A stretch of 64,000 bases of DNA from an uncultured Lachnospiraceae bacterium. GTDB lineage: Bacteria > Bacillota > Clostridia > Lachnospirales > Lachnospiraceae. The stretch lies in the NCBI GenBank assembly GCA_947177165.1, contig CAMWTP010000025.1:1-64000 (forward strand). The letters run 5' to 3'. The notes under the pieces are model-generated. The model was given only the letters and a program-made list of their open reading frames with translations. It made no database searches and was not told where the DNA came from. Positions 24 to 18,631 of the stretch are shown piece after piece (the stretch's first letter is position 1; each line of letters starts with the position of its first letter). The translations under genes and the position numbers were made by a program.

Positions 24-60
24 GACTGTTTCGCAGATCATGTTATTCTGCGAAACAGTC
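24..60. repeat. Perfect 13-bp inverted repeat upstream of the TnpB-like gene
   Basis: GACTGTTTCGCAG (24-36) and its exact reverse complement CTGCGAAACAGTC (48-60) flank an 11-nt loop. No T-run follows, so it is not a classical terminator. It ends just before the ribosome binding site of the TnpB-like gene starting at 81. Possible roles are an operator, a structured leader, or a relict IS200/IS605-type left-end hairpin. The role is inference; the symmetry is directly visible. Confidence 0.8.
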
Positions 61-80: not shown

Positions 81-1433
81 ATGGCAGGCAAAAAAGGCAA
101 TACCCTCACCAAAACCGTATGGCAGTACACAGAAGTGCTCCCAGAAGATACAATAGATTTTTTGCGGGGGCTTGCCGAAGGATATGGCAAGATAAAGAAC
201 TATACCTACAAACGATATTCCGGTATCAAAAGCTTTGGCAGACTGACACCAGTATACGACATCATGGGTGAGATACGTCGTAGCGGAATTCGTACGCAGT
301 TAGGATTGCCGTCCGCATGTTTTGATCCAGCCGTTGTCGATGCAGTGTCCGATATCAAGAGCATGTGGGCAGTAGTCAGGAGTAAACTGGGTAATCTCAT
401 CACCATGAATGAAAATTTGACAGATGAGGACCGGATATATCTGCGGACCATATTAAAGCTTGACAAGACCTATGCCGCAATTCTCAATCATGAAGACTAC
501 GAGATGCCTAAAAAGGCAAAAGATTTGGAGATCGATGCGGAGCGTCTCAACAATCTTCTGCGCAGGCTTACAAGGAAATATCTGAGAAAGCCAGAGGCAG
601 GACAGTCAGATTATTTTAGCATCACACCTGCCGGGTATGCCTATAAAGATGGCGTGTTGTTGATCACAACCGGGATTCATGGCAAAAGAATACCGATTCC
701 ATTAAAAGATAACCGCACAAGTGACAGACAGCTTAAAATCTTTGTCAGGGAAAAGGATGCCGCGATTGCAATTCCAGTGGAAAGCAGGATAAAAATGCAC
801 CACGATTACACGAACACAGTCTATGTGCATATCGGCTATAAGGACATGTTTACACTGTCAAACGGAAATGTTTACGGCGCATCGCTGGGAGATATCACAG
901 CGGAAGAGACCGAGCGGCTGACAGAAAAAAATAAGAAACGCGCAAGGATACGCAGTGTGCAGAAGCGCAGTGCCGAATCCGGAGACAGGAAAAAAGCAGA
1001 CAACATCGGTGTCAATAATCTCGGCACCCAGAAGTATGATCATCAGAAGGACAAGGAGCGCGCAAAGACACAAATCTTTATCAATGCTGCGATCAACAGA
1101 ATGCTTGCGGCAGAAAAGCCAGAGCGGGTTGTGATTGCCAGGCCGGTAAAGGTTCATAAGACGAAGCTTCCATCAAAGTCGGCAAACAGAAAGATGACAA
1201 GGAATTTCAACAGTTACATCAGGGAAAGACTGACATACAAATGCCGCATGAATTCCATAGAACTTGTGGAGATCCATTCCAAAGGAACCGGAAATATCTG
1301 TTCCTGCTGCGGTGCGGAAGGAAAGCGGACAGCATCTGGCTTTGTCTGCGGAAGCTGCGGTTTACAGAGCACGACTGCACTCAATGGTGCGAAAAATATC
1401 GAGAACAAATATAAAAATATGAATTCAAAATGA
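81..1433 (+). CDS. TnpB-family RuvC-like protein lacking all catalytic acids (TldR-like candidate)
   Basis: About 450 residues with the TnpB/IS605 OrfB layout: N-terminal RNA/DNA-binding part, split RuvC-like fold and C-terminal zinc ribbon (C407, C410, C423, C426). Aligned by motif to active TnpB, the RuvC-I Asp is His (VYVHIGY, H250), the RuvC-II Glu is Ala (VVIARPV, A353), and the final D-R-D before xNAAxNI is T-T-A (431-433). The zinc ribbon and flanking motifs are intact and the frame is open, so this looks like retained loss of nuclease activity rather than decay. Nuclease-dead TnpB relatives (TldR) are known RNA-guided repressors; that function here is inference. I chose ATG 81, with AAGG 8 nt upstream, because an earlier in-frame ATG at 6 would put the hairpin 24-60 inside the coding sequence. 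No TnpA is visible, though sequence left of the window is unknown. Confidence 0.8.
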   Translation: MAGKKGNTLTKTVWQYTEVLPEDTIDFLRGLAEGYGKIKNYTYKRYSGIKSFGRLTPVYDIMGEIRRSGIRTQLGLPSACFDPAVVDAVSDIKSMWAVVRSKLGNLITMNENLTDEDRIYLRTILKLDKTYAAILNHEDYEMPKKAKDLEIDAERLNNLLRRLTRKYLRKPEAGQSDYFSITPAGYAYKDGVLLITTGIHGKRIPIPLKDNRTSDRQLKIFVREKDAAIAIPVESRIKMHHDYTNTVYVHIGYKDMFTLSNGNVYGASLGDITAEETERLTEKNKKRARIRSVQKRSAESGDRKKADNIGVNNLGTQKYDHQKDKERAKTQIFINAAINRMLAAEKPERVVIARPVKVHKTKLPSKSANRKMTRNFNSYIRERLTYKCRMNSIELVEIHSKGTGNICSCCGAEGKRTASGFVCGSCGLQSTTALNGAKNIENKYKNMNSK

Positions 1434-1741
1434 CAGGTTAAACCATACGGACCTGAGAATAAATTGTTTTTCAGAATACTTTAAAATTCTGGATAAATGA
1501 TTTCACCGATACTGGATCACAGGTTTGTATGTTGACGATAGGATGGACAGGGGGCTGTTCATCGAGGCAAAAAACGGCATTGTCTAAGCTGCTGACTGTA
1601 TGGGCAGCTTTCTGGTATGCCAGGACCGTAGCCTGATACGGAGCGAAGCATATTTTGTTATGAAATATGCAGGTGCAGAGCACCCAGCTAATGCTTATGA
1701 TATTTGAAACAGATCAAAATTCTGCCAAGGGAGGTGAGGAC
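1434..1741 (+). other. Intergenic region with two hairpins; possible guide-RNA or regulatory region
   Basis: About 300 bp without a convincing gene. Two small hairpins are visible: CAGAAT/ATTCTG (1472-1477 and 1486-1491) and GCATATTT/AAATATGC (1648-1655 and 1663-1670). In TnpB/TldR loci the guide (omega) RNA is encoded at or just after the 3' end of the protein gene, so this is where it would lie. I cannot fold it or identify a guide by eye. It also holds the ribosome binding site GGGAGGTGAGG for the next gene. Confidence 0.4.
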
Positions 1742-3112
1742 ATGAAAAGATACAGGAAAAAAGATCTGCTGCAGATTGTATCGACACTTGTGCAAGTAAA
1801 TGATTCCGTCGCCAAGGCAGTATCTTCGACGGTCCTTTTTGAAGCGGAGGAAGAATTTGCAAAATGCCAGGAGTCCGCAATCGATCTTGGAAATTACCTG
1901 GAAACACTTGATGATATGGATTATACTCCCCTGGTAAGCATTCTGGAGGATTACTGCGAGAATGTTTACCAGATGGGTATCAATATTCAGGATGAAAATC
2001 TGTGCAGAAAGCTGACCAAGAAGATCAGAAAACAGCTGCTGCAGCTGCAGAATGCCATCACCTACGATATGCCGCCGGATAAAAAAGAAGTTGTTTTTCT
2101 TCCATATAAGGCAGCGATGTGGGATTCACTGGAAAGTGTGTGGAAGGCGGCACAGGAGGATGAGAGTTGTGACGCCTATGTCATTCCGATTCCATACTTT
2201 GACAAAAATCCAGATGGAAGTTTCCGCGAGGAGCATTACGAGGGTGATCTTTATCCAGAAGATGTTCCCATCACAAGATATGACACGTACGATTTCGAGG
2301 AGCGCAGACCAGATATTATTTACATTCATAACGCATATGATAATTGGAATCTGGTCACAAGTGTTCACCCGAACTTTTTTTCGGGAAACCTGAAAAAATA
2401 CACGGAAAAACTGGTATATATTCCGTACTTTGTGCTGGATGAAGTATCACCCGACAATGAACAGGCGGTAGAAAGTATCAAACATTTCTGTTTCCTGCCG
2501 GGTATCATCAACGCAGATAAAGTGATCGTGCAGTCTGAGGATATGAAGAAAATATACATCAATGAATATCTGAAAGCGGCAAGAGAGCACGGACTGCAGG
2601 GGAAACATCTGGATAGAACATACCTGGAACAGAAGTTTCTGGGACTGGGTTCGCCGAAGTATGACAGAATATTTGCTACGAAAAGAGAGGACCTGGAGAT
2701 TCCGCAGGAATGGCTGAGCGTCATTGAAAAGCCGGATGGGAGTTGGAAGAAGATCATTCTCTACAATACCGTAATCGGCACGCTGCTTGCCCACGATGAA
2801 AAGTGGGTGGACAAGATTGAGAATGCGCTGAATATTTTTAGGGAGAATCAGGATGAGGTTGTCCTGCTGTGGCGTCCGCATCCATTGATTGAAAGCACAA
2901 TGAAATCCATGCGTCCGGCGGTGCTGGAAAAATATATGATGCTGAAAAACAATTATGTTTCAGAAGGTTGGGGGATCTATGATGACACTGCTGATGTGGA
3001 CAGGGCAGTGGTGCTCAGTGATGCGTATTATGGGGATTACAGTTCCGTGGTACAGCTGTACCGGCAGACTGGGAAGCCCATTATGATACAGAATGTGGAG
3101 ATTATAACATAA
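1742..3112 (+). CDS. CDP-glycerol glycerophosphotransferase-like (TagB/TagF-like) transferase
   Basis: A soluble protein of 456 residues. The N-terminal ~120 residues are helical (ETLDDMDYTPLVSILEDY). The C-terminal two thirds look like a GT-B-type transferase of the CDP-glycerol family: GLGSPKYDRI, then VVLLWRPHPLIE, then a DAYYGDYSSVVQLY segment, matching the GSPR..D, WRPH and D..SS pattern of TagB/TagF. It probably moves a polyol-phosphate or related group onto the glycan. Start ATG 1742 has a strong GGGAGGTGAGG site; the longer frame from 1667 overlaps a hairpin and is not preferred. It lacks the amphipathic membrane anchor common in true teichoic acid polymerases. Family assignment is moderate and substrate unknown. 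Confidence 0.6.
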   Translation: MKRYRKKDLLQIVSTLVQVNDSVAKAVSSTVLFEAEEEFAKCQESAIDLGNYLETLDDMDYTPLVSILEDYCENVYQMGINIQDENLCRKLTKKIRKQLLQLQNAITYDMPPDKKEVVFLPYKAAMWDSLESVWKAAQEDESCDAYVIPIPYFDKNPDGSFREEHYEGDLYPEDVPITRYDTYDFEERRPDIIYIHNAYDNWNLVTSVHPNFFSGNLKKYTEKLVYIPYFVLDEVSPDNEQAVESIKHFCFLPGIINADKVIVQSEDMKKIYINEYLKAAREHGLQGKHLDRTYLEQKFLGLGSPKYDRIFATKREDLEIPQEWLSVIEKPDGSWKKIILYNTVIGTLLAHDEKWVDKIENALNIFRENQDEVVLLWRPHPLIESTMKSMRPAVLEKYMMLKNNYVSEGWGIYDDTADVDRAVVLSDAYYGDYSSVVQLYRQTGKPIMIQNVEIIT

Positions 3113-3225: not shown

Positions 3226-3272
3226 TTAAATATAGTATACTATGATAAATGGAAATGAAGGAGAATGACATT

Positions 3273-3542
3273 ATGTTGAGGATATTGGATGAAAAAGTGT
3301 TGAAGACCGATGAAGAGATAGAAGAGCTATATAAGAACTGCAAGTATTTATATATCATTGACAGCTACGATAAAATGATAGAGGATGAAGGGTATCTGTA
3401 TTGTGTCAGTACATCTGAGGAATCCTATAGCGAATTATACGCAACGCGCGACAGGCTGCGTGATGAAGGCAAGATTTGTGTGGTTGGAGGCAGTTATAAT
3501 AACGGAGGTGCAATCGGTGTACAGTACGAATATAAAGGATGA
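3273..3542 (+). CDS. Small hypothetical protein (89 aa), acidic
   Basis: I do not recognise this family. It is a short soluble acidic protein with alternating strand/helix character and a glycine-rich end (VVGGSYNNGGAIGVQYEY). Start ATG 3273 is preferred over 3249 because AAGGAG lies about 9 nt before it. It sits directly behind a strong promoter and its 3' end overlaps the next gene by 26 bp, so the two are probably cotranslated. Tight coupling to a retropepsin-like protein suggests a partner, substrate or inhibitor role, but that is only inference. Confidence 0.65.
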   Translation: MLRILDEKVLKTDEEIEELYKNCKYLYIIDSYDKMIEDEGYLYCVSTSEESYSELYATRDRLRDEGKICVVGGSYNNGGAIGVQYEYKG

Positions 3543-3942
3543 CAGATATGCTGTTGACTGTCTGATCATATCCCATAAGATATCCTTGGAGAAGTTTGTT
3601 GTAGATACAGGTGCCAAATTTACGTGCTGCGGTTACAAAGCCATTGACGGACGATTGGAGGAGAAAGCACTCAGTAACTGTGAAATAAAATCGATTGGCG
3701 GTTTTGTTAAAGGGGAATATTTAAAGTTTTACAGATTGACACTACGACAGTTCACCATTGGAAACATAGATATGGGGGAACAGGATATATGGATAACTTT
3801 TGATGAAAGAATTACGGATATCATACTGGGAATGGATATCTTAAAGCAGATTATCATGATAACGAATCCTTATGACCAGAAGATTTATTTCTGCAGGGAC
3901 CGGGAGGATTATGATGATAATTTTGAGTTAGCGGCAGGTTAA
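3517..3942 (+). CDS. Retropepsin-like aspartic protease domain protein
   Basis: A single-domain protein of 141 residues. The catalytic signature FVVDTGAKFT near residue 30 (D-T-G-A) and the second hydrophobic-glycine element DIILGMDIL near residue 110 match retroviral-type aspartic proteases, which act as homodimers. Start is GTG 3517: the ribosome site GGAGG (3504-3508) is 8 nt upstream and no in-frame ATG begins near the domain. An earlier ATG at 3385 gives an unrelated shadow of the previous gene. It overlaps the 3' end of the upstream small gene and shares its promoter. The natural substrate is unknown. Confidence 0.7.
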   Translation: MYSTNIKDDRYAVDCLIISHKISLEKFVVDTGAKFTCCGYKAIDGRLEEKALSNCEIKSIGGFVKGEYLKFYRLTLRQFTIGNIDMGEQDIWITFDERITDIILGMDILKQIIMITNPYDQKIYFCRDREDYDDNFELAAG

Positions 3943-3983
3943 GGAACTGCTTGGTGCCCAGTACAATTGAATAAATAGGATAG

Positions 3984-4048
3984 AAACTGATGTAAAGTAT
4001 GAAGTTGCCAGGATGTGTTTGGGATGAGATAGTTTACATCAGTTTTTT
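3984..4048 (+). terminator. Inverted repeat with T-run ending the protease operon
   Basis: AAACTGATGTAAA (3984-3996) pairs exactly with TTTACATCAGTTT (4033-4045), which runs into a stretch of six T (4043-4048). The 36-nt loop is longer than usual for an intrinsic terminator, but the position between two transcription units fits. Confidence 0.6.
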
Positions 4049-4112
4049 ATGTGGTTTAGTTAGAATTAGTTTGCTGGTTTAAAGTGAAGTTTTTGAGGAG
4101 GGACTATTTTAC

Positions 4113-5024
4113 ATGAAGCAAAGAATGGTACAAAGAATATCCAATGGAGAAATGATTGACCTTGCAAAGTTAAATAGAAAGAAGTTAAAACGATTGCATT
4201 ATGAGGAAGAAAAATGTATTGCAAAAAAAATATGTACACTTTCGCCTTTTTCAAAAGATAGAGACGAGTATTTAAAAAAAATGTATGATTTTGCGTATGC
4301 AGTTATGCCTTGGTATCAATCAAGTAAGAAACAAAGTTACGGAGCAAATGCTAATTCTATAGGTATAGTATGCGATTTTTTGCGCGCTGATAAAACACAA
4401 AAGGTAATTTATGAGGCAGGTGTAGGAATAGGATTTAGCTGTCGGCATTTTGTTGAGATACCAAATACACAGGTAAAAGGTTGCGATGTTGTCATGAGCA
4501 AAGAAATAAAATTGTTAATGGAACAATATCAAAATTTATCTGTAGATGAAGATACATTATATAATAGTTTAAAAAAAATGGATGATGGTAGTATAGATTA
4601 TTTCTATGCAGACAATGTGATAGAACATTTATTACCTGATGAATTTCCAGAGATATTGCATTTAATTTCACGCAAGATGAAGCGGAATGGAATGCTTTTT
4701 TTAATAATACCTAACTGGCTGGATGGCCCTCATGATGTATCGAAATATTTTTTGAATCGGGGAAGTAAAGCAGAGGGGTCACATTTTATGGAGATGTCAT
4801 ATCGAGAGACATTGGATAAGTTTAAAAAGGAAAATATTAAACCAGAATATTTTACGTATAAGCATCAAGGAAAAATTAAATATTTAAAAGACAGATTAGG
4901 AATTTTGAATAAAATCAAGGTGGAAGTGGAGTCAATACTTTCCTTTGTTTTGAATAAGACAGATTGTGGAAAGAACTGGATTTATAAAATGGGTATGACA
5001 TACTATATATTAGTTCAAAAGTAA
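4113..5024 (+). CDS. Class I SAM-dependent methyltransferase
   Basis: A 303-residue protein. The SAM-binding glycine motif is EAGVGIG (101-107), followed by CDVV at the end of beta-2 and YFYADNVIEHLLPDE, the typical post-motif II segment of Methyltransf_11/23 enzymes. A strong GAGGAGGG site lies upstream of ATG 4113. It is very AT-rich and begins the low-GC half of the island. It probably methylates a sugar or another small glycan precursor; the acceptor cannot be read from sequence. No signal peptide or membrane segment is visible. Confidence 0.75.
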   Translation: MKQRMVQRISNGEMIDLAKLNRKKLKRLHYEEEKCIAKKICTLSPFSKDRDEYLKKMYDFAYAVMPWYQSSKKQSYGANANSIGIVCDFLRADKTQKVIYEAGVGIGFSCRHFVEIPNTQVKGCDVVMSKEIKLLMEQYQNLSVDEDTLYNSLKKMDDGSIDYFYADNVIEHLLPDEFPEILHLISRKMKRNGMLFLIIPNWLDGPHDVSKYFLNRGSKAEGSHFMEMSYRETLDKFKKENIKPEYFTYKHQGKIKYLKDRLGILNKIKVEVESILSFVLNKTDCGKNWIYKMGMTYYILVQK

Positions 5025-5397
5025 GCTAAATATTTATGATATTGTTATAAGTTAATATAGGAAATTAGGAAAGAATTAGACAACAGTCAATATCTGTATT
5101 GGTATACAGATTTCCTGCAATAATGGGTGCTGAATTATATTAAGGATATAAACATATTTTTGAGAGGAATATTACGTTAGGACGTAATACAAAGGTTGTA
5201 GTGGGTGCAGGCCGTAAAGCTATGATGGAATTTTGCATAATGTCTCAGAAAGTATAGATGTTGGAGTTTGTAAAGACCACAAATTGAAAACGGCGATTTG
5301 GTTTCAGAAGTAAAGCTCATACTATAATAAATAATTAATGAAAAAAGAGATATATTTGTGTATATGATTTTTAATTATTCGAAAGGACGAACTAATT
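5025..5397 (+). pseudogene. Intergenic stretch with a possible degenerate coding remnant
   Basis: No intact gene is present in about 370 bp. Around 5180-5315 two frames give protein-like pieces, NTKVVVGAGRK followed in another frame by YDGILHNVSESIDVGVCKDH, which could be the frameshifted remains of one gene. I do not recognise the family. A GAAAGGA site near 5380 serves the next gene. Confidence 0.3.
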
Positions 5398-6504
5398 TTG
5401 TTATTAAGTGAGTGGTTGAAAAGAATAGAAACGAAGAAAGTTTTTTTGGATGTCTATAGTTTTTTTTGCTTTTTGGGGATGAGGAGGCAGAATTTTACAA
5501 TTAAAAATAAAAATATGTGGAGGAAAACTATTAAAAATTGTTATAGATCAGATAAAAACGTTGAACGTGATGACTGGAAAGATTGGATACATGGGTTTTC
5601 AACAAGTAATTTGAGAATAATAAAACAATGCAGAGTGCCAATTAAGAAGACTGACCCTATTGTTGTAAGTGTTGTTCGAGATGAAAGGAAAAGGTTACCT
5701 ATATTTTTGGCATATTACAGGGAACTTGGCATTAAAAGATTTGCGATAATAGATAATAACTCTTGTGATGATTCTATAAAATGGCTGATAGATCAGTATG
5801 ATGTAGATGTATTTTCATGTACAGATATATTTAGTGATAGGAGAAAAGTTGGATGGAGCAATAGGGTAATGGGATTTTACGGAGTAAATAGGTGGTTTTT
5901 ACTCTTGGATGGTGACGAATTTATTGACTGGCCACAGCGAAGGGAACATAATCTTGCGTGGATGATACGCAATTTGGAGAACAAACATATATTTCAAGGG
6001 AAGGCTCTTATGGTAGATATGTATCCCAAAGATGGAGGTGGAGAAAAAGCGCCTTTATTTGATATTTTTGAAAAAGCATATAGCAAAGCAGATTATTTCG
6101 ACATAGACTCTTATTATGAAAAGAATACACAATATGGGAAAGTAATGACAGGAGGAATACGGAAAAGGGTTTTCGATTATGAGGTATGGTTAACAAAGTA
6201 TCCATTATTTTATTTAGAGGAGAGCAGAGTGGTTTTAAACGCACATTTATTATATCCTATTCCTATTTATAAAAGAAATCCTTATTATTTTGTAATAAGG
6301 CATTACAAATTTGTACTCAAAGAAGATATTGAAAAAATTAAAAAATATTCCAGGGAAGAGAATTTCTGTGAAAAAAGTAAAAATACAAAAATATATTTTA
6401 GTAATTATAAATTAAACAAATTTCATTTTTATTATGAAGGTTCGTGCAAATTTTATGATCCAGAATCATTGGGGAAAATTGGTTATATAGAAATCATTGA
6501 ATAA
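5398..6504 (+). CDS. Glycosyltransferase, GT2-like (Glyco_tranf_2_4 type)
   Basis: A 368-residue protein. It shows the GT-A features of the Glyco_tranf_2_4 group: VVRDERKRLPIFLAYYRELG (D95-E96), IDNNSCDDS, and a metal-binding LLLDGDEF motif (DGDE 171-174). The first ~85 residues are a basic extension of unknown role. The start appears to be TTG 5398 with an AAAGGA site 10 nt upstream. Probably cytoplasmic. It would add one sugar to the island's glycan; donor and acceptor are unknown. Confidence 0.75.
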   Translation: MLLSEWLKRIETKKVFLDVYSFFCFLGMRRQNFTIKNKNMWRKTIKNCYRSDKNVERDDWKDWIHGFSTSNLRIIKQCRVPIKKTDPIVVSVVRDERKRLPIFLAYYRELGIKRFAIIDNNSCDDSIKWLIDQYDVDVFSCTDIFSDRRKVGWSNRVMGFYGVNRWFLLLDGDEFIDWPQRREHNLAWMIRNLENKHIFQGKALMVDMYPKDGGGEKAPLFDIFEKAYSKADYFDIDSYYEKNTQYGKVMTGGIRKRVFDYEVWLTKYPLFYLEESRVVLNAHLLYPIPIYKRNPYYFVIRHYKFVLKEDIEKIKKYSREENFCEKSKNTKIYFSNYKLNKFHFYYEGSCKFYDPESLGKIGYIEIIE

Positions 6505-6619
6505 TTAATGGAAATAACATAACAATATTACTGCATTATATGGGTAATAGATTTATTTGCTAGGTGGGAATAACTTAAGGGAATGAATTCTTTGTATGTC
6601 GGGAAGGATTTGATAATTA

Positions 6620-7762
6620 ATGGGGATATCATCACTTTATTATTATAGTGTATGGGCAATAGACATATGTGTAGAAGGTAATTTTTTCTGGTTTTTTGCT
6701 GGCGGAATGAATGGGATATTTAAGGGGGATATTGAGAATGGGAGACTTGAATTATTAACTGAAATTGATGGGTGTGAAAAAACGGACGCCGTAAAATTTT
6801 CGTGTGGAATAAAAGTGGGTAGCAAGTTGTTTTTTTGTCCCTTTAATTCAAATTGTATTTGTGAGTATGATATGAAGAAAAATTCAACAAAAATTTTTAA
6901 ATCTGAACAATTGATTTGTCCAAGAATTAATAATGTAGTTCACTTTAAGGACAATTTATATTTGTTTGGAAAAAATCAATCTTTTATTGCAACTTTTGAT
7001 TTGACTAAAGAAGAAATTAATATTATGCAAAATGAGAGATTTTGTAAAAAATATGTAAAGGGTAATCCGCCAATAAGGGATTTAATAATTAGAGAGGAAT
7101 TTGTGTATATTGCGGATAAGGACAACATTATTGAACTTAATTTACTAACAAACAATGTACAGGAGTACTTTATTGAAAAAAATATTGGTAATGATCGAGC
7201 AGATACATTAGCTTTTGATGGTAAGGATTTTTGGATACTTTATAAAAAGAATGGTTTGGTTCAGTGGAATAAGGAAGAAGGAGAATTGTTTTCTAGTGTT
7301 TTACCTATCCTTGGACAAGCTGTAAAAAGTGTTGTGAGTGGTGAGTTTCTTTACATATTGTACAATGATGTGAACAAAATATTAATATTTAATCGATATG
7401 AAAAAAAGTTTTATGTTGTTGATGCGGAATATTGTGTTGCAAAGGAAGAAAAAGGATGTTTTAGTCCGTTTGTATTAGAAAAAAGGACTGGTTTGTATAT
7501 ATATACGAGTATTGATCATAAGATTATTCACATTGACTTAGATAGAAATGTGAGATATATACCACTCTATTTGAAGAATCCAGCACTGTTCATGGAGAAT
7601 TATATGCATCCTGTTTTATATGGAGAAAAAAATATATTAATTGAAAAAAAGGATTATTGGCGTGGATTAGATACATATGTGAGATGTGTGATAAAGGACG
7701 AATCATCAGATGTTGAGCAAAGGCAATGTGTCGGAAAAGATATCTATCAAACAATACAATAA
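6620..7762 (+). CDS. Predicted beta-propeller-like protein, function unknown
   Basis: A 380-residue protein without a catalytic signature I recognise. It carries a recurring ~50-residue pattern of short strands, e.g. NFFWFFAGGMNGIFKGD, NLYLFGKNQSFIATFDL, FWILYKKNGLVQWN and LYILYNDVNKILIFNRY, each an aromatic-rich strand then a turn then a second strand. This is typical of beta-propeller blades. No signal peptide is clear, so it is probably a cytoplasmic scaffold or binding protein. It is flanked by glycosyltransferase and methyltransferase genes. The call is from repeat pattern only. Confidence 0.55.
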   Translation: MGISSLYYYSVWAIDICVEGNFFWFFAGGMNGIFKGDIENGRLELLTEIDGCEKTDAVKFSCGIKVGSKLFFCPFNSNCICEYDMKKNSTKIFKSEQLICPRINNVVHFKDNLYLFGKNQSFIATFDLTKEEINIMQNERFCKKYVKGNPPIRDLIIREEFVYIADKDNIIELNLLTNNVQEYFIEKNIGNDRADTLAFDGKDFWILYKKNGLVQWNKEEGELFSSVLPILGQAVKSVVSGEFLYILYNDVNKILIFNRYEKKFYVVDAEYCVAKEEKGCFSPFVLEKRTGLYIYTSIDHKIIHIDLDRNVRYIPLYLKNPALFMENYMHPVLYGEKNILIEKKDYWRGLDTYVRCVIKDESSDVEQRQCVGKDIYQTIQ

Positions 7763-7776
7763 TAGGAAGGGAATAA

Positions 7777-8580
7777 ATGAACAATTTGGTGGCGAGAACG
7801 GGGGAAATTTATACAGATATTATTACAAATATAAATTTATTATCTGAAAGAAGAAAGTGTTTTATATGTAAAAGAACCTTTTTTACGTATTTGCCGGTAT
7901 TTAGTGAAGACTGGTATTTAAGACAATTGATACAATATGGTGTAAATTTTAACTTTAGGGATATGACATTTAACAGGTGGGAATATCGATGTCCATATTG
8001 TGGTTCAATTGATAGAACAAGGTTGATCATGTTGTATGTAAGAAGGCATTATCGGAGGGAACATAATCTAAAAGTATTATATTTTGCACCCGCGCCAGGA
8101 GGTGTGAAGTTTCTGAAAGAAAGATTGAAGTATGCAAAAGTTGATTCCAATGATTTGTATAAGAGTGGTGTGGATTATCATTTAGACATACAAAATATGC
8201 AGGAAATACCTGACAATTCATATGATTTAGTAATTTGTAGTCATGTATTAGAACATGTAGCAGATGATATAAGCGCATTAAAAGAACTATACAGGGTTAC
8301 AAAATATGGAGGAGAAGTATTGATTTTGGTGCCACTTGATACGAAGAGAGTCTGGTTTGATGAAGCAAATGGGTTGAGTAAAGAAATGAATTGGAAACGT
8401 TTTGGTCAAGTAGATCATGTAAGGCGATACACAGACAGTGAATTGAAAAAGAGAATCCAAAATGCAGGGTTTTATTGTGAATTGTTTACAGGAAATGATG
8501 TAGATGACAAAGTCAGGAGTCAAAATGCTTTTAATAAATACATTCGTATTTATATAGCGAAAAAGGAAGTAGAAAAATGA
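7777..8580 (+). CDS. Class I SAM methyltransferase with N-terminal CxxC pairs
   Basis: A 267-residue protein. Two cysteine pairs (C28/C31 and C72/C75, CPYCGS) form a likely zinc site ahead of a Methyltransf_11 domain with VLYFAPAPGG in place of the usual glycine loop and VICSHVLEHVADD near 152-164. AGGAAGGG precedes the ATG. The stop overlaps the next start (ATGA). It probably methylates a sugar in the glycan pathway; the specific position is unknown. Confidence 0.75.
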   Translation: MNNLVARTGEIYTDIITNINLLSERRKCFICKRTFFTYLPVFSEDWYLRQLIQYGVNFNFRDMTFNRWEYRCPYCGSIDRTRLIMLYVRRHYRREHNLKVLYFAPAPGGVKFLKERLKYAKVDSNDLYKSGVDYHLDIQNMQEIPDNSYDLVICSHVLEHVADDISALKELYRVTKYGGEVLILVPLDTKRVWFDEANGLSKEMNWKRFGQVDHVRRYTDSELKKRIQNAGFYCELFTGNDVDDKVRSQNAFNKYIRIYIAKKEVEK

Positions 8581-9518
8581 ATTCTTCTGAAATAAAAGTC
8601 AGTGTGATGATGGTTACATATAATCATGAAAAATATTTGGAACAGGCAATTTTAAGTGTTTTAGGGCAGAATACAGATTTTAAATATGAATTGCTGATCG
8701 GTGAGGATTGTTCTACCGATCATACAAGAAAAATAGCCGAGAAATATCAAGCAATGTATCCAGAAATTATAAAACTAATTAGCCATAATAAAAATATTGG
8801 GGCATTAAAGAATGAGGCAGATTTGAGGAGAAGATGTAAAGGACAGTATATTGCAGTGTTAGAGGGGGATGATTACTGGACAAATCCTGATAAATTAAAG
8901 ATTCAAATGGAATTTCTTGAATCCCATTTACAGTATATTGGTGTTTCGCATAATGTAACGGTTTTAGATGAAAATGGAGAAAAAGTACCTTATGAACTCG
9001 AAGGAATTCATTATCAGCAAGCGCATGTCTATACCAAAGAGGATGCGCTTGATTTTAAGATGATTGGTCACTTGTCAGGATGGATGTATAGGAACATCTG
9101 GAAAAAGATGTCCCAAAGAGAATTTAATTTGATAAAAAAATGTGATGTAAATAGCGATGTAAAACTGAGTGTCGTGCTAGGTTTGAAAGGAGATATTTAT
9201 TATATTGAGGACGAGTGGTCAGTATATAGGAGACGCTTTGAGGGGGATGGATGGTCGGCAAAATATTACAGTAGAAATCTGGAATTATATCATTATGAAA
9301 CAGATGTGAAATTAAGAAATTTTTTAGATAAGTGTTATGGTGAAAAGATAGATATAAAAGCAAGGCTATTAAAAAATATATATAGAAGCGGAACTATTTG
9401 TATCAAGAATCCTTCTAAAGAAAATGTTATGGTTTTCTTAAAATTATTTTTTAAGAAGGAAGTTTCTAAAAGAGATTTATTGCTTTATTTAGGGAGAAAA
9501 TGTTTTGAAAGAAGATAA
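8577..9518 (+). CDS. Glycosyltransferase family 2
   Basis: A 313-residue GT-A enzyme. N-terminal VSVMMVTYNHEKYLEQAI is the nucleotide-binding opening; IGEDCSTDHT (41-50) and EGDDYW (96-101) are the conserved acidic motifs. It overlaps the preceding methyltransferase by 4 bp and the following small gene by 14 bp, indicating translational coupling. It has no membrane segments, so it acts on a cytoplasmic acceptor. Confidence 0.85.
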   Translation: MNSSEIKVSVMMVTYNHEKYLEQAILSVLGQNTDFKYELLIGEDCSTDHTRKIAEKYQAMYPEIIKLISHNKNIGALKNEADLRRRCKGQYIAVLEGDDYWTNPDKLKIQMEFLESHLQYIGVSHNVTVLDENGEKVPYELEGIHYQQAHVYTKEDALDFKMIGHLSGWMYRNIWKKMSQREFNLIKKCDVNSDVKLSVVLGLKGDIYYIEDEWSVYRRRFEGDGWSAKYYSRNLELYHYETDVKLRNFLDKCYGEKIDIKARLLKNIYRSGTICIKNPSKENVMVFLKLFFKKEVSKRDLLLYLGRKCFERR

Positions 9519-9837
9519 AGTGAAGTTTGTTTATACACTCAATCAGGAGTTGGAACAGTATAAGTATTGGATAATATACGGAAGTGGAATTATGGCAGTT
9601 GAACTTTACATGACAATCATAGAAAAAGGGGGGCATATAGATTTTTTTTGCGATATGGATGATTTTTTTATCGGAAAAAGACTATTAAACAAAAAGATTA
9701 TTACAGTACAAGAAGTAGCAGAGTTTGGTAGGGATGCCTGCTTGATTGTTTGTGAAGAATATGGGGCTGAGATGCTAGAAAGGTTAAAAGAATTAAAAAT
9801 TAAAAATATTTTTGTCCCAATTTCTGAGGGTAGATAG
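9505..9837 (+). CDS. Stand-alone YGAG-type Rossmann-like module
   Basis: A protein of 110 residues consisting of a single alpha/beta module: WIIYGSGIMAVELYMTII (glycine-rich first strand and helix), then IDFFCDMDD, then a final strand near NIFVPISEGR. It resembles the nucleotide-binding half of PglD/NeuD-type or Methyltransf_14 proteins. This is the first of 17 occurrences of the module in the island. The start seems to be TTG 9505, overlapping the GT2 gene. No catalytic residues are apparent; it may bind a nucleotide or sugar nucleotide, or act as a docking subunit (inference). Confidence 0.65.
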   Translation: MKEDKVKFVYTLNQELEQYKYWIIYGSGIMAVELYMTIIEKGGHIDFFCDMDDFFIGKRLLNKKIITVQEVAEFGRDACLIVCEEYGAEMLERLKELKIKNIFVPISEGR

Positions 9838-9838
9838 A

Positions 9839-11053
9839 ATGCATATTATTAAAAATAATGGGATTATTCAAAAAATAATTAATATGAGCAACGAAAAAAA
9901 AATAGGTGTATGTGGTTATGATAAGGCAGCGATTGCATTAGAAAGATTATTAGACAGGATGGGCGTTAGAGTAGAGCGCTTTTTACTTTTAGAAAACGAT
10001 ATACAAGAATTAGCATGTCAGGATGAACGTATTATAAATTTATATGATCTTATGTATGAGGAAGAAAAATTTTTCGTTGTAGAACCACATTATGATCGTG
10101 TTCATATTAAATTTAAAAATGCTTTGGGGGACTTGGAATATAAAGAATGGAACGATTTTGTCCACATATTTAATAATGCAATACATCAAGAAGTCATTGT
10201 TAGGTTTACAGAGTGTATTGATATAAATCTTGGCGTATCGTGGAATCAGGATGAGGATGGATTTACCATATATGGCGATAGGGATGATGATACCTATACG
10301 ATTGTTACACTTGGAGGGAGTACTACATATTCCGATCAATTAGTGTATGCAAAATGTTGGTCAGAGTTACTGTATTATAAATGCTGTCAAAATGGACGAA
10401 AGGTATGTATTTTATGTGGAGGAATGCCAGCGTTAGATTCGACACAGGAATTGGTAAAATTTCTGCGAGATGTTATACCTATGAAACCTGATATGGTTTT
10501 GTCATTTAGTGGAATTAATGACTTAGTAGATTCACATGGAGATTTTAACGATTATGGAAAGGGGTATCCATTTGCTTTCCCAAGATTAAAAGTGAAGATG
10601 GATCAATTATTAAAGGATACGCAAGAACGGAATCCATTATATTTAGGGAGAAAGAGTGATTTTGAAGTTGAAGATATCTGGATACTGAATAAGAAAATTA
10701 TGAATTTTGTTGCAAGGGAAATGGGAATTGTTTTTTACACTTTTCTACAGCCAATGTTATATTGTGGTGACTATGTGATTGATCCGGAAATAATGCCCAA
10801 GTTGGAAGAATATAGGAAGAATGATAGATTTTCGTTTATGTTTGACCATGCACAAGAGTTTCGGGATAAAATAGTAAGTCAGATACAAAATGAGGATTAC
10901 ATTATTGATTTTACAGGAATATTTGACGGATGCTCAAAACTATTTATCGATTTTGCCCATGTGAATGAATGGGGAAACTCAATAATTGCTGACAGTGTTT
11001 TTAATCATATTAAAAAAGATATATGTTGTGATCGGATAGGGGGCAGATCATAA
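9839..11053 (+). CDS. SGNH/GDSL-type hydrolase with N-terminal Rossmann-like module
   Basis: About 404 residues. Residues 20-110 carry a variant of the Rossmann-like module (KIGVCGYDKAAIALERLL). The rest has SGNH blocks: LGGSTTYSD (S161 nucleophile), SFSGIND (N227) and IDFAHVNEWGN (D371/H374). Such enzymes add or remove O-acyl groups on sugars. I prefer ATG 9839, just after the upstream stop, over TTG 9812. The last base overlaps the next start. No signal peptide, so a cytoplasmic acyl hydrolase or transferase acting on the glycan is likely. Confidence 0.7.
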   Translation: MHIIKNNGIIQKIINMSNEKKIGVCGYDKAAIALERLLDRMGVRVERFLLLENDIQELACQDERIINLYDLMYEEEKFFVVEPHYDRVHIKFKNALGDLEYKEWNDFVHIFNNAIHQEVIVRFTECIDINLGVSWNQDEDGFTIYGDRDDDTYTIVTLGGSTTYSDQLVYAKCWSELLYYKCCQNGRKVCILCGGMPALDSTQELVKFLRDVIPMKPDMVLSFSGINDLVDSHGDFNDYGKGYPFAFPRLKVKMDQLLKDTQERNPLYLGRKSDFEVEDIWILNKKIMNFVAREMGIVFYTFLQPMLYCGDYVIDPEIMPKLEEYRKNDRFSFMFDHAQEFRDKIVSQIQNEDYIIDFTGIFDGCSKLFIDFAHVNEWGNSIIADSVFNHIKKDICCDRIGGRS

Positions 11054-11388
11054 TGGTCAAACAGTTATTTCAGATAAATCCACAGATATGGGAATTTGAA
11101 AATAAGGTGATTTATGGTGCAGGAAAGGAAGGACAATTACTTTATCTTAGACTTGAAAAAGAAAATTTGGATATAGAATATTTTGCAGATAGCAATATGC
11201 AATTATGGGGGCAGACTATTATGGAGAGAAAAGTATTGTCACTTGATGAATTAAAGAGTATTAACAAGGATACGGCCATTCTATTGTCCCGTGGATATGA
11301 GGAACAAATATATGAGTTTCTAATTAAAAAAGGATTTAGAAACATATTTCTATCACATATAAGTAATGGACTCATTCTGGAGGATTAG
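11053..11388 (+). CDS. Stand-alone YGAG-type Rossmann-like module
   Basis: A 111-residue protein made only of the recurring module: KVIYGAGKEGQLLYLRL, IEYFADSNMQLWG, then DTAILLSRGYEEQIYEFL. It starts within the stop of the SGNH gene (TAATG), so it is translationally coupled. It lies 2 bp before the Gfo/Idh oxidoreductase gene. Function is not known; being encoded alone between fused versions, it may serve as a subunit of either neighbour (inference). Confidence 0.65.
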   Translation: MVKQLFQINPQIWEFENKVIYGAGKEGQLLYLRLEKENLDIEYFADSNMQLWGQTIMERKVLSLDELKSINKDTAILLSRGYEEQIYEFLIKKGFRNIFLSHISNGLILED

Positions 11389-11390
11389 TA

Positions 11391-12434
11391 ATGATAAGAA
11401 TAGGAGTTATTGCTCCGGCAGAGATTGCCCAACGTCGATTTTTACCAGCATTGCATAAGTGTAATCATAATATTATTTTTGCAGGAGTAGCAGTGTGTAA
11501 TGACGATGAAAGGGAAGTGGAGAAGTTTTGCAAGATCACAGTAGAGCAATTGAAAGAAAAGCGTGATAAACAACTTATGAAAGCACAGAAGATAATTGAA
11601 GTTTATGGAGGAAAAATATATTATGGATATTCTTCAATGATTATGTCAAGGGAGATTGATGCAATATATATTCCACTACCACCTGCGTTGCACTATAAAT
11701 GGGCAAAAGACTGTTTAGAACATGGAAAACATGTTTTGCTTGAAAAGCCGTTTACAACAAATGAAAAATATACATTGGATCTTTTGAAAATCGCAAAACA
11801 ACAAAAGCTTGCTGTGATTGAAAATTATATGTTTGTATATCATGAACAAGTTGAGGCAATTAAAAATATGATCCAAGATAATATGCTGGGAACAGTTCGT
11901 TTATATGAAGCAAAATTTGGTTTTCCCAAACGTCCAGAAGGTGATTTTAGATATAATCGCTTTTTGGGAGGCGGAGCATTATTTGATTGTGGTGGATATT
12001 TGATAAAAAGTGCATCAATATTTTTAAAAGAAAATTTTGAAATACTATATGTTTTGTCGAATAAAACTGATGATAGTGAAGTTGATCTGTATGGTTCAGC
12101 TGCATTTAGAAATGCATATGGTGAAGTGATGCATATTGCATATGGTATGGATAATGCTTATCAATGTGAGATGAGTGTATGGGGTAGTAAAGCAATATTA
12201 AGGGCAGAACGTTTTTTTACAGCACCACCCCAATTGGCTCCCAATATTAAGATTAGTTATAGTGATGGTACTGTTCAAGAAATAGCTATAACGCCATGTG
12301 ATACTTTTCGAAAGTCGATAGAACATTTTGAGAATTGTATAGAAAATTTGAAAGACAGGGAAATGGCATATAAAGAAATAGAAAGACAAGCATTATATAT
12401 GGAGAGGTTTGTACAGATGTCAGATTTTCGTTAA
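11391..12434 (+). CDS. Gfo/Idh/MocA-family NAD(P)-dependent sugar oxidoreductase
   Basis: A 347-residue protein. It has an N-terminal Rossmann fold (RIGVIAPAEIAQRRFLPAL), AIYIPLPPALHYKWA, and the family signature HVLLEKPF with K119. The C-terminal half is the usual alpha/beta substrate domain (GGGALFDCGGY). It lies directly before the NDP-hexose 2,3-dehydratase gene. In NDP-2,6-dideoxysugar pathways an enzyme of this family reduces the 3-keto group right after 2,3-dehydration, so a 3-ketoreductase role is well supported by context but is inference. Confidence 0.8.
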   Translation: MIRIGVIAPAEIAQRRFLPALHKCNHNIIFAGVAVCNDDEREVEKFCKITVEQLKEKRDKQLMKAQKIIEVYGGKIYYGYSSMIMSREIDAIYIPLPPALHYKWAKDCLEHGKHVLLEKPFTTNEKYTLDLLKIAKQQKLAVIENYMFVYHEQVEAIKNMIQDNMLGTVRLYEAKFGFPKRPEGDFRYNRFLGGGALFDCGGYLIKSASIFLKENFEILYVLSNKTDDSEVDLYGSAAFRNAYGEVMHIAYGMDNAYQCEMSVWGSKAILRAERFFTAPPQLAPNIKISYSDGTVQEIAITPCDTFRKSIEHFENCIENLKDREMAYKEIERQALYMERFVQMSDFR

Positions 12435-12449
12435 TTGGAGAGAATTGAA

Positions 12450-13856
12450 GTGACAAATAAGATATCTAATAATTTAACATTGGTGCAAATAATAGAATCA
12501 TGGGTGACAACAGAAGGAACTATCCATTCATTGAGTGAGATATTAAGCTGGATAGCGGAAAAAAATGATGAGGTACAAGTATCCATTCAAAAAATTAGTC
12601 TTCAAGAAATGCAGGATTGGCATTATGATAAAGAAGAAATGGGCATAGTCAATTATTCACATACATTTTTTAAAATAACCGGTTTAAAGAAGTTTGATAA
12701 AAAAGGTGAATTAGAGTTGGAACAGCCTATTATTCTGCAAAATGAAATTGGATATTTGGGAATAATTGGAAAAGTTATTGATGGTGTATTATATTTTCTA
12801 ATGCAGGCGAAGATTGAACCAGGCAATATTAATAAAATTCAAATATCTCCTACTGTTCAGGCTACAAAAAGTAATTTCATGCGTGTTCATGGAGGAAAGG
12901 CTCCAAAATATATAGAATATTTTTCTCATAAAAAAAATTACGAGGTTATCGTTGACCAGATTCAGTCAGAGCAGTCCTCTAGATTTTATGGGAAAAGAAA
13001 TAGAAATATCTTGATTATTGTTGATGATGAAATAGAAATTGTTGATAGTCATATGTGGATGACTTTAGGGCAGATTAAGCAGTTAATGGAGTATGATAAT
13101 TTGGTAAATATGGATACCCGAACGGTTATTTCTTGCATTCCTTTTGCATTGCGCGATTTTACATATAAAGAACTCATATATATAAATACATTATTTACCA
13201 AACAAGAGTTGTATAATTCTATTTTTTTTGGGGACGCCGGGTTGAAGATAAACAATATATATCAATATATGAATGAAATAAAAATGTTGGATAACAGTAA
13301 AGTAGAGTTAGTAGATTTGAATTCACTTCAAGATTGGCGATATGACGGAAAATCATACACTTCATCTACGGGTGATTTTAATGTAATTTTTTGCGATATC
13401 GGAATTGAAGGCAGGGAGGTTAGCAAATGGCAACAGCCTCTTTTAGAAGCCAAAACAGTTTTGGTTTTAGGGTTGATATATTGTGTTTCTGATAATAAAA
13501 CAAATTTTTTGGTTCATAGTCTGTCGGAAGTTGGGTGTTTTGACAAAATTGAAATTGGTCCTACGGTACAATATTCTGATTTATATAAAAAGGACATGAA
13601 TCATATTGAAAAAGTGTTTGTTGATAAATATAAAAGAGGAGAAGGAGTAACTTTCTCTGGTCTTTTTTCAGAAGAAGGAGGGCGTTTTTATCATGAAGAA
13701 AATAGAAACGTTTTACTTCAGATTAATAAAACAGAAGTAGATCCGTTACCACCGGGATACTTTTGGGCAGATTATCAGACATTGAATATATTAATACAAT
13801 TTAATAACTGTTTGAATATCCAGTTGAGGAATCTGCTTTCGATACTGAGAATATAA
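12450..13856 (+). CDS. NDP-hexose 2,3-dehydratase (tandem domains)
   Basis: About 468 residues with two homologous halves, the usual layout for EvaA/TylX3-type enzymes (Hexose_dehydrat). The first half has EPGNINKIQISPTVQATKSN and WHYDKEE; the second repeats with QDWRYDGKS, QPLLEAKTVLVLGL and KIEIGPTVQYSD. It removes water across C2-C3 of an NDP-4-keto-6-deoxyhexose. GTG 12450 has GGAGAG 7 nt upstream and is preferred over TTG 12435, which would lie on that site. The nucleotidyltransferase and 4,6-dehydratase that must precede it are not in the window. Confidence 0.85.
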   Translation: MTNKISNNLTLVQIIESWVTTEGTIHSLSEILSWIAEKNDEVQVSIQKISLQEMQDWHYDKEEMGIVNYSHTFFKITGLKKFDKKGELELEQPIILQNEIGYLGIIGKVIDGVLYFLMQAKIEPGNINKIQISPTVQATKSNFMRVHGGKAPKYIEYFSHKKNYEVIVDQIQSEQSSRFYGKRNRNILIIVDDEIEIVDSHMWMTLGQIKQLMEYDNLVNMDTRTVISCIPFALRDFTYKELIYINTLFTKQELYNSIFFGDAGLKINNIYQYMNEIKMLDNSKVELVDLNSLQDWRYDGKSYTSSTGDFNVIFCDIGIEGREVSKWQQPLLEAKTVLVLGLIYCVSDNKTNFLVHSLSEVGCFDKIEIGPTVQYSDLYKKDMNHIEKVFVDKYKRGEGVTFSGLFSEEGGRFYHEENRNVLLQINKTEVDPLPPGYFWADYQTLNILIQFNNCLNIQLRNLLSILRI

Positions 13857-13867
13857 GGAGCGATAGG

Positions 13868-14797
13868 ATGAAAAATGCTATTGTAACCGGAGGAAACGGA
13901 TTTATCGGAAAGGCGATATGTAGAAAACTGTTAAATGAAGGAATTAAAGTCTATGTAATTGTGCGTAACCCTGAAACAATGAAAGAATTTATATCAAATT
14001 CAAATCTTGTTGTTGTTCAGGGGAGTCTGGAAGATATTTTGATATTAGAAAAAGTATTGCAAGGTCAAAATTTTGATGTTTTTTATCATTTTGCATGGGT
14101 AGGTACTTCTGGTGAAAGTTTAAGGAGTGTTCCTGTACAGGTTAGCAATATAGTTTATACATGCAATACTTTAGAATTGGCGATTAGGCTGGGATGCAAA
14201 AAATATATATTTGCAGGGACAATTAACGAATTGGAGTTATTGCCATTTTTCAATGCGGATGCGTTTAAGCCAAGAGCAGCCAGTATTTATGGCATTGTAA
14301 AGTTAGCTTGTGATTTTATATGTAAAACACTCGCTGTTGATAAAAGTATTTGCTATAATACTGCGATTATTGGTAGTTGTTTTGGTCCAGGAGATCGGTC
14401 ATGGAGAATCCATAATACATTTATTTCCAGTATGCTTGAACAAAAAGCACCTAAATTGATCAGCGGAGATATATGGCATGATTGGATATATATTGATGAT
14501 GTAGTCGGAATGTTACATGCGATTGGTGAAAAAAGTATCAATAGAAGAAATTATTATATAGGACATAGGAATTTGAAAAAGTTTAAGGATATTTTATGTG
14601 AAGTAAGAGATTATTTATGCCCGGGACTTGAATTACAGTTTGGAGAACTAAAAGACAGTTTTTGGATTGATTATTCTTTAGTGGATTTAAATGCCGTCTA
14701 TGAGGATACAGGATATGAATGCCAGACAGACTTTAAAACTGCAATATTGGAAACGGCAGAGTGGGTCAGGAAAATAAAAAAGATAGGGGATCAATGA
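13868..14797 (+). CDS. NAD-dependent epimerase/dehydratase (extended SDR), likely sugar 4-ketoreductase
   Basis: A 309-residue extended SDR. The NAD-binding motif is TGGNGFIG (7-14), the catalytic pair is Y141 and K145 (YGIVK), and the substrate region has GDIWHDWIYIDDVV. RBS AGGAG lies about 8 nt before the ATG. Next to the 2,3-dehydratase and Gfo/Idh enzyme it most likely reduces the 4-keto group to finish an NDP-2,6-dideoxyhexose. An epimerase role cannot be excluded. Confidence 0.8.
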   Translation: MKNAIVTGGNGFIGKAICRKLLNEGIKVYVIVRNPETMKEFISNSNLVVVQGSLEDILILEKVLQGQNFDVFYHFAWVGTSGESLRSVPVQVSNIVYTCNTLELAIRLGCKKYIFAGTINELELLPFFNADAFKPRAASIYGIVKLACDFICKTLAVDKSICYNTAIIGSCFGPGDRSWRIHNTFISSMLEQKAPKLISGDIWHDWIYIDDVVGMLHAIGEKSINRRNYYIGHRNLKKFKDILCEVRDYLCPGLELQFGELKDSFWIDYSLVDLNAVYEDTGYECQTDFKTAILETAEWVRKIKKIGDQ

Positions 14798-14799
14798 TT

Positions 14800-15687
14800 A
14801 TGAATGTATGTATTTCGGTTGATGATCATTACATTAATTCTGCATTGGTAATGATTAATTCTTTATTTATAAACAATAGAAATATTAAAATCCATCTTTA
14901 TGTTTTATATACCAAACATCAATTGGCGAAGCAAGGAAGGGAAGATATTTTGAAAGTAGTGAAGATGTTTCATATGAAGGCTGATTTTGTTTCTGTCAAT
15001 GATGAATGTTTTAGAGATGCTCCTTTGGTGGAGTATATTTCAATTACAACATATTATAGACTTTTGTTAATGGATCTCTTACCAGTAGATAAAGTTCTAT
15101 ATTTGGATACGGATTTAGTTGTGACCGGCTCTCTGGAAGAATTGTATAATATTGATATGAAGGACAAGGCTTTTGCAGGCGTTTTGGTACAGTCAAAGGA
15201 AAGAAAGAAAGCACTTGGAATTCAGTCAGGATATCCATATATTAATGCAGGAGTATTAATGATGAATCTCCAATGGCTGCGTGGGCACACAACAAGAGAA
15301 GATATGTTGGCTTATATTACAAAGAATAAGGCATGTCTTAGATTAGCTGATCAAGACGTCATAAATGGAATGTTTTATAGAAATAATAAGGTGATTCCTT
15401 CAAAATATAATTATTGTCCATATAAAAATAAGAGGTATTTTGAAATAAAAAAGGACTTATATAGAAGACCAGTTATTTATCATTATAGGGGTGAAAAGAA
15501 ACCATGGCAATTTAAATACGGAGGGTATGCAAAAATTATTTTTTGGAAGTATGTTAATAGGGATATTATGGAATATCCTGATATATTTAAGCTTATACAT
15601 GTAATTATTGGAGAGTTTTTGGAGTTGTGGGGATTTCTTAAACAGAAAATTATAATGGTTATGAGAGGAGACTTCTATCATGTTTAG
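14800..15687 (+). CDS. Glycosyltransferase family 8
   Basis: About 295 residues with GT8 features: NVCISVDDHYINSALVMINS, ITTYYRLLLMDLLPVDKVLY, the DxD metal motif LDTDLV (D103/D105), YINAGVLMMNL, ADQDVINGMF, and a late YHYRGEKKPW. GT8 enzymes are retaining transferases for glucose or galactose. Start could be ATG 14794 (ATGA overlap with the SDR stop) or ATG 14800; the AGGGG site is spaced better for 14800. Its end overlaps the next gene by 8 bp. Confidence 0.85.
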   Translation: MNVCISVDDHYINSALVMINSLFINNRNIKIHLYVLYTKHQLAKQGREDILKVVKMFHMKADFVSVNDECFRDAPLVEYISITTYYRLLLMDLLPVDKVLYLDTDLVVTGSLEELYNIDMKDKAFAGVLVQSKERKKALGIQSGYPYINAGVLMMNLQWLRGHTTREDMLAYITKNKACLRLADQDVINGMFYRNNKVIPSKYNYCPYKNKRYFEIKKDLYRRPVIYHYRGEKKPWQFKYGGYAKIIFWKYVNRDIMEYPDIFKLIHVIIGEFLELWGFLKQKIIMVMRGDFYHV

Positions 15688-16732: not shown

Positions 16733-16782
16733 GGGGAAATGGGTAGTGTAATTATTTCTTAGATTTTATTGAGGATAATAAG

Positions 16783-18621: not shown

Positions 18622-18631
18622 GGAGGGCATA

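Follow-up and report, generated by a model that had tools for sequence, protein, structure and literature searches.

The window, by which we mean the whole 64,000-nucleotide stretch analysed here, comes from an uncultured Lachnospiraceae bacterium and opens with a recombination-site core, a TnpB-like gene and a structured RNA with a predicted guide, all preceding a long island of glycan genes. The features on which the following argument is built are, in order of position:

29..55, no strand assigned: recombination-site core, TTTCGCAGA-n9-TCTGCGAAA, inside the inverted repeat 19-65; an identical 27-mer opens contig C41
81..1433, + strand: predicted nuclease-dead TnpB (dTnpB, TldR-like), 450 aa, from the ORF, family match, alignment and dN/dS
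1434..1687, + strand: structured RNA scaffold (omegaRNA/gRNA-like) with a conserved 3' domain at 1568-1687, from covariation and folding
1612..1615, + strand: pseudoknot 5' strand, CTGG (helix 3, columns 83-86)
1684..1687, + strand: pseudoknot 3' strand, CCAG, the scaffold end and the last 4 nt common to the active elements L269 and L270
1688..1704, + strand: predicted guide, CTAATGCTTATGATATT, delimited by agreement with the default copy (defined below) through positions 2-17, except 8, and a drop at 18
1742..3112, + strand: glycerophosphotransferase-like gene (PF04464), at the head of the glycan island and presumed to be the escaping copy
2328..2344, + strand: target-homologous site in this gene, ATAACGCATATGATAAT, with 3 mismatches to guide positions 2-17, including one in the seed
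3249..43289, mainly + strand: rest of the glycan island, with glycosyl- and methyltransferases (partly annotated)

A small ORF pair at 3249-3942, encoding a 97-aa protein and a retropepsin-like aspartyl protease (PF13975/PF13650, just under cut-off), is met again at several other islands of this kind (clusters 15 and 11). Beyond the island lie a minus-strand gene for a helicase resembling a phosphorothioation restriction enzyme (44953-46494, below cut-off) and addB/addA (51956-59613).

A TnpB homologue apparently devoid of catalytic acids

Counted from the ATG at position 81, the reading frame runs uninterrupted for 450 codons. Its product matches the Pfam model of the TnpB/Cas12f zinc ribbon (PF07282, E = 2.8e-11) and the NCBIfam model guided_TnpB (1e-15, yet under the family cut-off), and a 35-row alignment (A1) shows no variation at the cysteines of the zinc ribbon (C407, C410, C423 and C426). 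Placed by alignment with eight TnpBs, namely those of 24 loci offered that had a full ORF past the filter, His250 (828-830), Ala353 (1137-1139) and Ala433 (1377-1379) occupy the D, E and D columns of the catalytic site; the references carry D-E-D in seven cases, L269 and L270 among them, and D-N-D in one. The preliminary description, which had claimed the loss of all three RuvC acids from an intact 450-codon frame with both CxxC pairs, is borne out on each of these points. In the solved structures of TnpB and Cas12f (8j3r, 8dzj and 7l48), it is the RuvC/zinc-ribbon C-terminal region that aligns (E = 1.9e-11 to 6.8e-6), the best stretches lying in the C-terminal part only; unlike the window dTnpB, these proteins are presumably all nucleases. 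A second dTnpB in the same genome (C35:28292-29611), 58% identical to the first, is by the same residues likewise catalytically dead.

Matches to the dTnpB occur in 27 of the 60 genomes searched, its own included, and 26 of these belong to the same genus. A scan of a species-genome collection found 186 relatives; among the 80 listed, most are titled Lachnospiraceae, with others under Selenomonas/Selenomonadaceae and a few other Bacillota. No close phage homologue was found in 50,697 phage records, which gave three generic matches of 23-26%. In the search of the order, the main matches of the family have E-values of 1.2e-107 or lower and generic TnpBs of 3.5e-14 or higher, a gap to which the fragment L156 is an exception.

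Removal of 27 duplicate proteins from 129 records left 102 rows, of which about 97 are distinct, since five loci are counted twice through differing start calls (L055/L208, L053/L199, L060/L222, L061/L234 and L057/L218). No acid stands at any of the three catalytic places in 101 of these rows, the exception being L156, a 213-aa fragment, which argues against chance decay. At these places subfamily A has mainly H/Y, T/A and A/S/P, and subfamily B (26 of the 102 rows) has S/A, P/A/V and K/R. It had been suggested that a functional protein should have intact orthologues with the same loss, and a non-functional one relatives full of stops: orthologues of the former kind are the rule, and in-frame stops, one apiece, occur in two of the first 43 rows. 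No TnpA gene stood out among the neighbours that were looked at. The ratio dN/dS has a median of 0.10 and a range of 0.06-0.29 over 79 pairs, some of them counted twice.

The nearest active relatives, L269 and L270, which belong to the same class, retain D/E/D, are homologous to the dTnpB over its full length (E = 1.5e-120 and 5.9e-113) and group with the dead rows in the tree with a support of 99/99. The branch that would unite all dead rows has a support of 46/51 and is thereby compatible with either a single or a multiple catalytic loss. Descent from TnpB, as expected of a TldR, is thus indicated by PF07282, by the homology to L269 and L270 and by the clade support, and loss of the RuvC residues by the 101 rows and the TnpB alignment; the D/E/D triad of an active TnpB is not found in the window dTnpB or in these 101 rows.

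Paired inverted sites upstream of the gene

The core at 29-55 would be the right edge of an invertible segment whose remainder lies outside the contig of the window; it is because the contig ends near this palindromic core that the window starts only 80 bp before the dTnpB gene. The assembly contains this core four times: in the window, at the very start of C41 (with an identical spacer) and twice at the C35 paralogue, where two inverted cores enclose 303 bp just upstream of the gene. Across the family, an inverted site pair (score of at least 19) lies upstream at 49 of 82 loci and in 1 of 62 control stretches, although at least four of the 49 are doubtful, L039 and L251 being mirrored assemblies and L064 and L258 having pairs away from the gene. 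A recombinase gene lies within 3 kb at 46 of the 82 loci; in the window's own genome the sole close integrase relative (53%) is 13 kb upstream of the paralogue's segment. Of 102 loci, 19 begin no more than 250 bp before dTnpB, and none ends within 250 bp on its downstream side. The assembly of L039 (G022:C23) is mirrored around ten Ns precisely at the recombination core, which might be expected if both orientations coexist.

Three types of segment are seen: some of about 300 bp, some of about 1.4 kb with an integrase inside, and others of 100-160 bp with palindromes of the serine-recombinase type. In some segments a sigma-28-like promoter is plain to see, directed at the gene in L051 and L052 and in the opposite direction in L033; the strict pattern is present in 12 of 52 segments, as against 9.2% of shuffled ones. 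The paired sites and recombinase genes together provide what has been described upstream of csrA-associated TldR genes, namely a recombinase and a probable invertible promoter segment.

A conserved pseudoknot RNA and its guide

A conserved RNA does sit in the interval 1434-1741, which had been proposed for small-RNA sequencing. It was found by pattern in 62 of the 102 rows and corresponds to the adjacent gRNA scaffold with a 3' guide that is typical of TldRs; the 40 rows without a pattern match include 13 of subfamily A. In 55 distinct 3' domains (identical RNAs and L043, which contains Ns, were excluded), a six-helix structure with a pseudoknot has 92.5% of its cells paired, whereas slid versions reach at most 42%. 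The helices hold 177 double-change cells compared with 64 in shuffles, a number reached by none of 500 shuffles. Of the five measures, one is at chance level, namely the count of pairs in which any double change occurs (13 versus 11.7, reached in 86 of 500 shuffles). The pseudoknot pair 84-227 is GC in 22 RNAs, CG in 16, UA in 16 and AU in 1, and the window RNA (1434-1704) folds with z = -4.24. An Rfam search gave no convincing family, and a suspected group I intron of the IStron kind was not found in the active elements. Hairpins with z < -1 follow the scaffold in 39% of the 62 RNAs. At L033, L034, L036, L043 and L048 there are hairpins right after the guide, with AAAAGAC or AAAGGAC-like loops on stems that vary; their GGA loops are reminiscent of CsrA sites.

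The active elements share the layout of the scaffold, including the CTGG/CCAG pseudoknot, and differ from the window system in their intact D/E/D. L269 and L270 are alike through CCAG and then diverge, the sequence differing with each insertion, which we read as the element end, where the guide begins. By homology, CCAG at 1684-1687 places the start of the window guide at 1688, and the drop in agreement with the default gene at position 18 suggests a length of about 17 nt.

An alternative frame, in which the guide follows TATGATA, was rejected because L269 and L270 put the start 15 nt earlier; the conserved TATGATAA, earlier taken for scaffold, is then part of the guide. Searches with this late frame against flagellins, the own genome, sister loci and the own upstream region gave matches at about chance, with the exception of L192, whose match is a homologous scaffold end. 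Two further candidates were discarded, namely a hairpin over the late-frame guide (first 16 nt paired at 0.375 versus 0.378 in shuffles, n = 62) and bridge-RNA-like targeting of the recombination site in cis (mean longest match 10.5 for own and 10.4 for other sites).

Guides of subfamily A fit an unlinked copy of the glycan gene

A Glyphos-like match lies downstream of dTnpB within 700 bp in 69 of 100 loci and within 4 kb in 78 of 100. At L060 and L061 the Glyphos-like gene stands directly before dTnpB rather than after it, and in L060 it overlaps the dTnpB start. The guides of subfamily A vary in the manner of codons for N-[P/A/S/T]-Y-D, and the next gene has that motif (HNAYDN, HNPYDN). The window's genome holds three full copies of this glycan gene, one behind each dTnpB and one at C65:14909; the last, which we call the default copy, has a sigma-28-like promoter directly before it and is without dTnpB. 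A degenerate codon pattern recovers 42 sites in 16 genomes, compared with 3 for the reversed control, and three of the 42 are outside the glycan gene (one each in L342, L349 and L354). Free-standing default copies occur in 15 genomes, and tblastn detected no dTnpB in these 15 default loci; in genome G005 (76% complete) no default copy was found. An RNase J-like gene of one kind precedes both the window genome's own default (L337) and the G032 dTnpB cassette (L048), so that cassette and default can occupy one locus.

At 21 loci from 15 genomes, the mean number of mismatches over guide positions 2-17 is 1.62 against the default, 4.12 against the neighbouring copy of the locus itself and 2.25 against the defaults of other genomes, the default copies being orthologues of one another and the comparisons thus not independent; permutation of defaults among genomes gives p = 0.0024. 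The default is closer than the own gene at 16 of the 17 loci with a readable own-copy site, with one tie and no case of the reverse. Own copies are themselves near the defaults (3.18 mismatches, versus 1.88 for the guides, at the same 17 loci). Position by position, guide and default agree in 14-21 of 21 loci over positions 2-17, except at position 8 (6/21), and in 4/21 at position 18; at position 1 they disagree in 8/21. Because the 21 loci were picked by a pattern with TAA-Y and TATGAT, some of the agreement seen over positions 2-4 and 9-14 follows from the selection itself, a bias from which the permutation and the silent-site test below are free. L049, the sole subfamily A locus of the 15 genomes that the pattern missed, has a guide that, read by eye, differs from the default at 2 positions and from its own gene at 4.

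All 16 positions match the default in the guides of L037, L050 and L051, and the base that distinguishes Pro from Ala is shared with the default by 19 of 21 guides and with the own copy by 13 of 17. A seed mismatch separates guide and own copy at 16 of 17 loci. Seven of the 21 guides (L033, L041, L042, L044, L045, L046 and L057) have one mismatch to the default in the seed (positions 2-7), which in five of the seven is AAC for AAT. The guide of L033 has 1 mismatch in positions 2-14 to the window's own gene and 2 to the default; this better fit suggests that alternative copies other than the default may be the targets of some guides. In the window itself the guide has 2 mismatches to the default (at 8 and 16) and 3 to its own gene over positions 2-17, a thin case for a single locus, so that the argument rests on the family. 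For subfamily A, then, the guides match a host gene, as those of TldRs do. The preliminary description had supposed a regulator of the adjacent glycan island; that was close, in that the family of the island's first gene is the one apparently targeted, but it is the unlinked second copy that fits better.

Subfamily B guides read like codons for [IVM]-P-Y. In the G002 default they fit best at PIPYY, a candidate site to which L070 has 2 mismatches in 12 (own gene 3) and L071 has 3 (own gene 3). In L342 the 18-nt target string ATACATAATCCATATGAT has a second exact copy (G022:C12:427204-427221), some 2.4 kb further downstream than the default-gene copy; no long ORF in that frame covers it.

Silent bases are constrained at the default target

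For the silent-site test we compared 15 defaults, in which the search pattern leaves third bases free, and 17 own copies; the secondary sites L349, L351 and L354 and the genome G005 were excluded. Within IHN[A/P]YD the defaults have the same third base in 558 of 576 same-amino-acid comparisons (96.9%), as against 51.7% in the rest of the gene, which makes this stretch the first of 360 six-codon windows in silent-base identity. The same site in the copies behind dTnpB gives 387 of 750 (51.6%). In the defaults the constraint covers the run ATA-CAT-AAT-nCn-TAT-GAT-AAT; the only silent base left free in it corresponds to guide position 8, at which the guides disagree as well. All 15 defaults use ATA for the Ile that precedes the site, compared with 21 of 57 other copies (two doubles; Fisher p = 1e-5), which suggests that ATAC belongs to a flanking recognition motif; owing to the shared descent of the species, these p-values are indicative only. 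Judged by these comparisons, the target site of the default gene is under selection at its silent bases, and such selection would be evolutionary evidence that being targeted benefits the host. In copies behind subfamily A genes, silent-site identity is raised at IPIPYF (0.78, the fourth-best window), which is near the best-fitting site of the two B guides in the G002 default.

Alternative explanations

We consider the reading of the window dTnpB as a TldR-like, RNA-guided repressor, which silences the resident glycan gene while its own operon is on, to have a probability of roughly 80%. A different role for the same components would be regulation of their own transcript in cis: they could bring about processive antitermination in the long glycan operon or regulate it from the leader, and the guide's resemblance to the default gene would then be incidental. 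Processive antitermination has a parallel in systems of the UpxY/LoaP type, the RNA sits between dTnpB and the operon, and the hairpins after the scaffold in a subset of loci would suit such a role. Regulation in cis nevertheless leaves unexplained why the 16-17 nt past the pseudoknot track a gene at another locus and why the silent-site constraint is confined to the default gene, and we regard it as unlikely. The guide could instead be a relic, whether of a captured gene piece or of an ancestral insertion guided by the match, with nothing bound today. Although the seed mismatches of several guides to the default are in keeping with this, the purifying selection on the protein, the compensatory changes in the RNA and the constraint on target silent bases across 15 genomes, with the free base just where the guides disagree, make a relic very unlikely.

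Silencing of flagellin genes, in the manner of the csrA-associated and phage TldRs, would draw on the sigma-28-like promoters at some loci, on the 17 flagellin-domain matches in the own genome and on the parallels that PMC13418256 describes. These 17 matches are on C38, C37, C143, C52, C8, C43 and C93, and 12 genus mates have 3-13 each. The guide is, however, accounted for by another gene, and a motif scan of the 102 loci (1.05 Mb) revealed no flagellin-like or csrA-like ORF. The 3' sequences showed no excess match to the flagellin loci compared, a poor test of the guide given that the frames used began at guide positions 12-24, the TATGATA frame being 15 nt too late. A distant flagellin gene, the other target put forward in the preliminary description, finds no support, and we think this possibility very unlikely; the TldR-like nature of the protein, also proposed there, is upheld by its dead nuclease, intact frame, purifying selection and conserved scaffold. 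That the gene is the remnant of a decaying transposon, as the loss of every catalytic acid might suggest, has next to no likelihood, being refuted by the dN/dS of 0.10, the intact frames and the conserved position in the operon.

Relation to known TldR systems

The csrA-associated TldRs of Oscillibacter and Flavonifractor (PMC13418256) are the nearest counterparts. They too combine a chromosomal nuclease-dead TnpB with a gRNA and have their target inside the ORF of an alternative gene copy, and an invertase gene and an invertible FliA-promoter segment lie upstream, where our family has its paired inverted sites. In contrast, they adjoin csrA and fliC and target flagellins; the linked and apparently targeted gene here is glycerophosphotransferase-like, the motif scan of flanks placed neither csrA nor fliC beside the gene at any of the 102 loci, and tyrosine as well as serine recombinases are found at the switch. 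In the phage TldR-FliC modules of Enterobacteriaceae, as described in PMC13418256, a dead TnpB likewise silences the host version of a gene while the co-encoded version escapes; there the gene is a flagellin, whereas the present family has a glycan gene, a putatively switchable segment and no close phage homologue. Short guides and intragenic targets have precedents, since published TldRs repress with guides down to 6 nt and the csrA-associated ones target within ORFs (PMC13418256). This is the one TldR study that turned up in the open literature searched, and words beginning with 'glycos' or 'glycan' are absent from its main text; an earlier mention of the clade, for instance in the original TldR paper or on bioRxiv, is possible.

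A model for the exclusion of surface glycans

In the model that we propose, the dTnpB gene heads an operon, and a site-specific recombinase would flip the segment upstream of it. With the segment promoter toward the operon, dTnpB, the guide RNA (part of the same transcript, downstream of the dTnpB gene) and an alternative glycan pathway headed by the glycerophosphotransferase-like gene would be made together. The ribonucleoprotein would bind about 580-600 bp into the coding sequence of the default gene, beside the ATAC motif, and block transcription as a roadblock; since the guide runs in the same sense as the mRNA, its pairing partner would be the template strand. The adjacent copy would escape because its codons, and often also the flanking Ile codon, differ. 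One glycan programme would thereby be exchanged for another. Catalytic loss, purifying selection, the paired inverted sites and the pseudoknot RNA can be read from the DNA, as can the position and length of the guide, its match to the default and the silent-site constraint; from these we infer the inversion itself, assembly of the ribonucleoprotein, DNA binding and repression. The glycan may decorate the flagellum, the sole hint being the sigma-28-like promoters at a subset of loci.

Known targets of TldRs are flagellins and also a transporter gene. In the gut Lachnospiraceae considered here, the dTnpB family appears to silence a glycan gene, and there is a good chance that it represents a host-encoded, phase-variable, RNA-guided exclusion of surface glycans, in which the default keeps the silent bases of its 17-nt protospacer and the ATAC flank, except at the unread position 8, while the escaping copies drift. 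Subfamily B may act elsewhere in this gene family, at a second site (IPIPY[F/Y]), with layered switching among several glycan programmes as the outcome. To our knowledge, the Bacteroides UpxY/UpxZ proteins are the only previous answer to how switchable surface programmes exclude one another. The dTnpB family would offer a mechanism for such mutual exclusion, and one in which guide, target and escaping copy may all be read from sequence.
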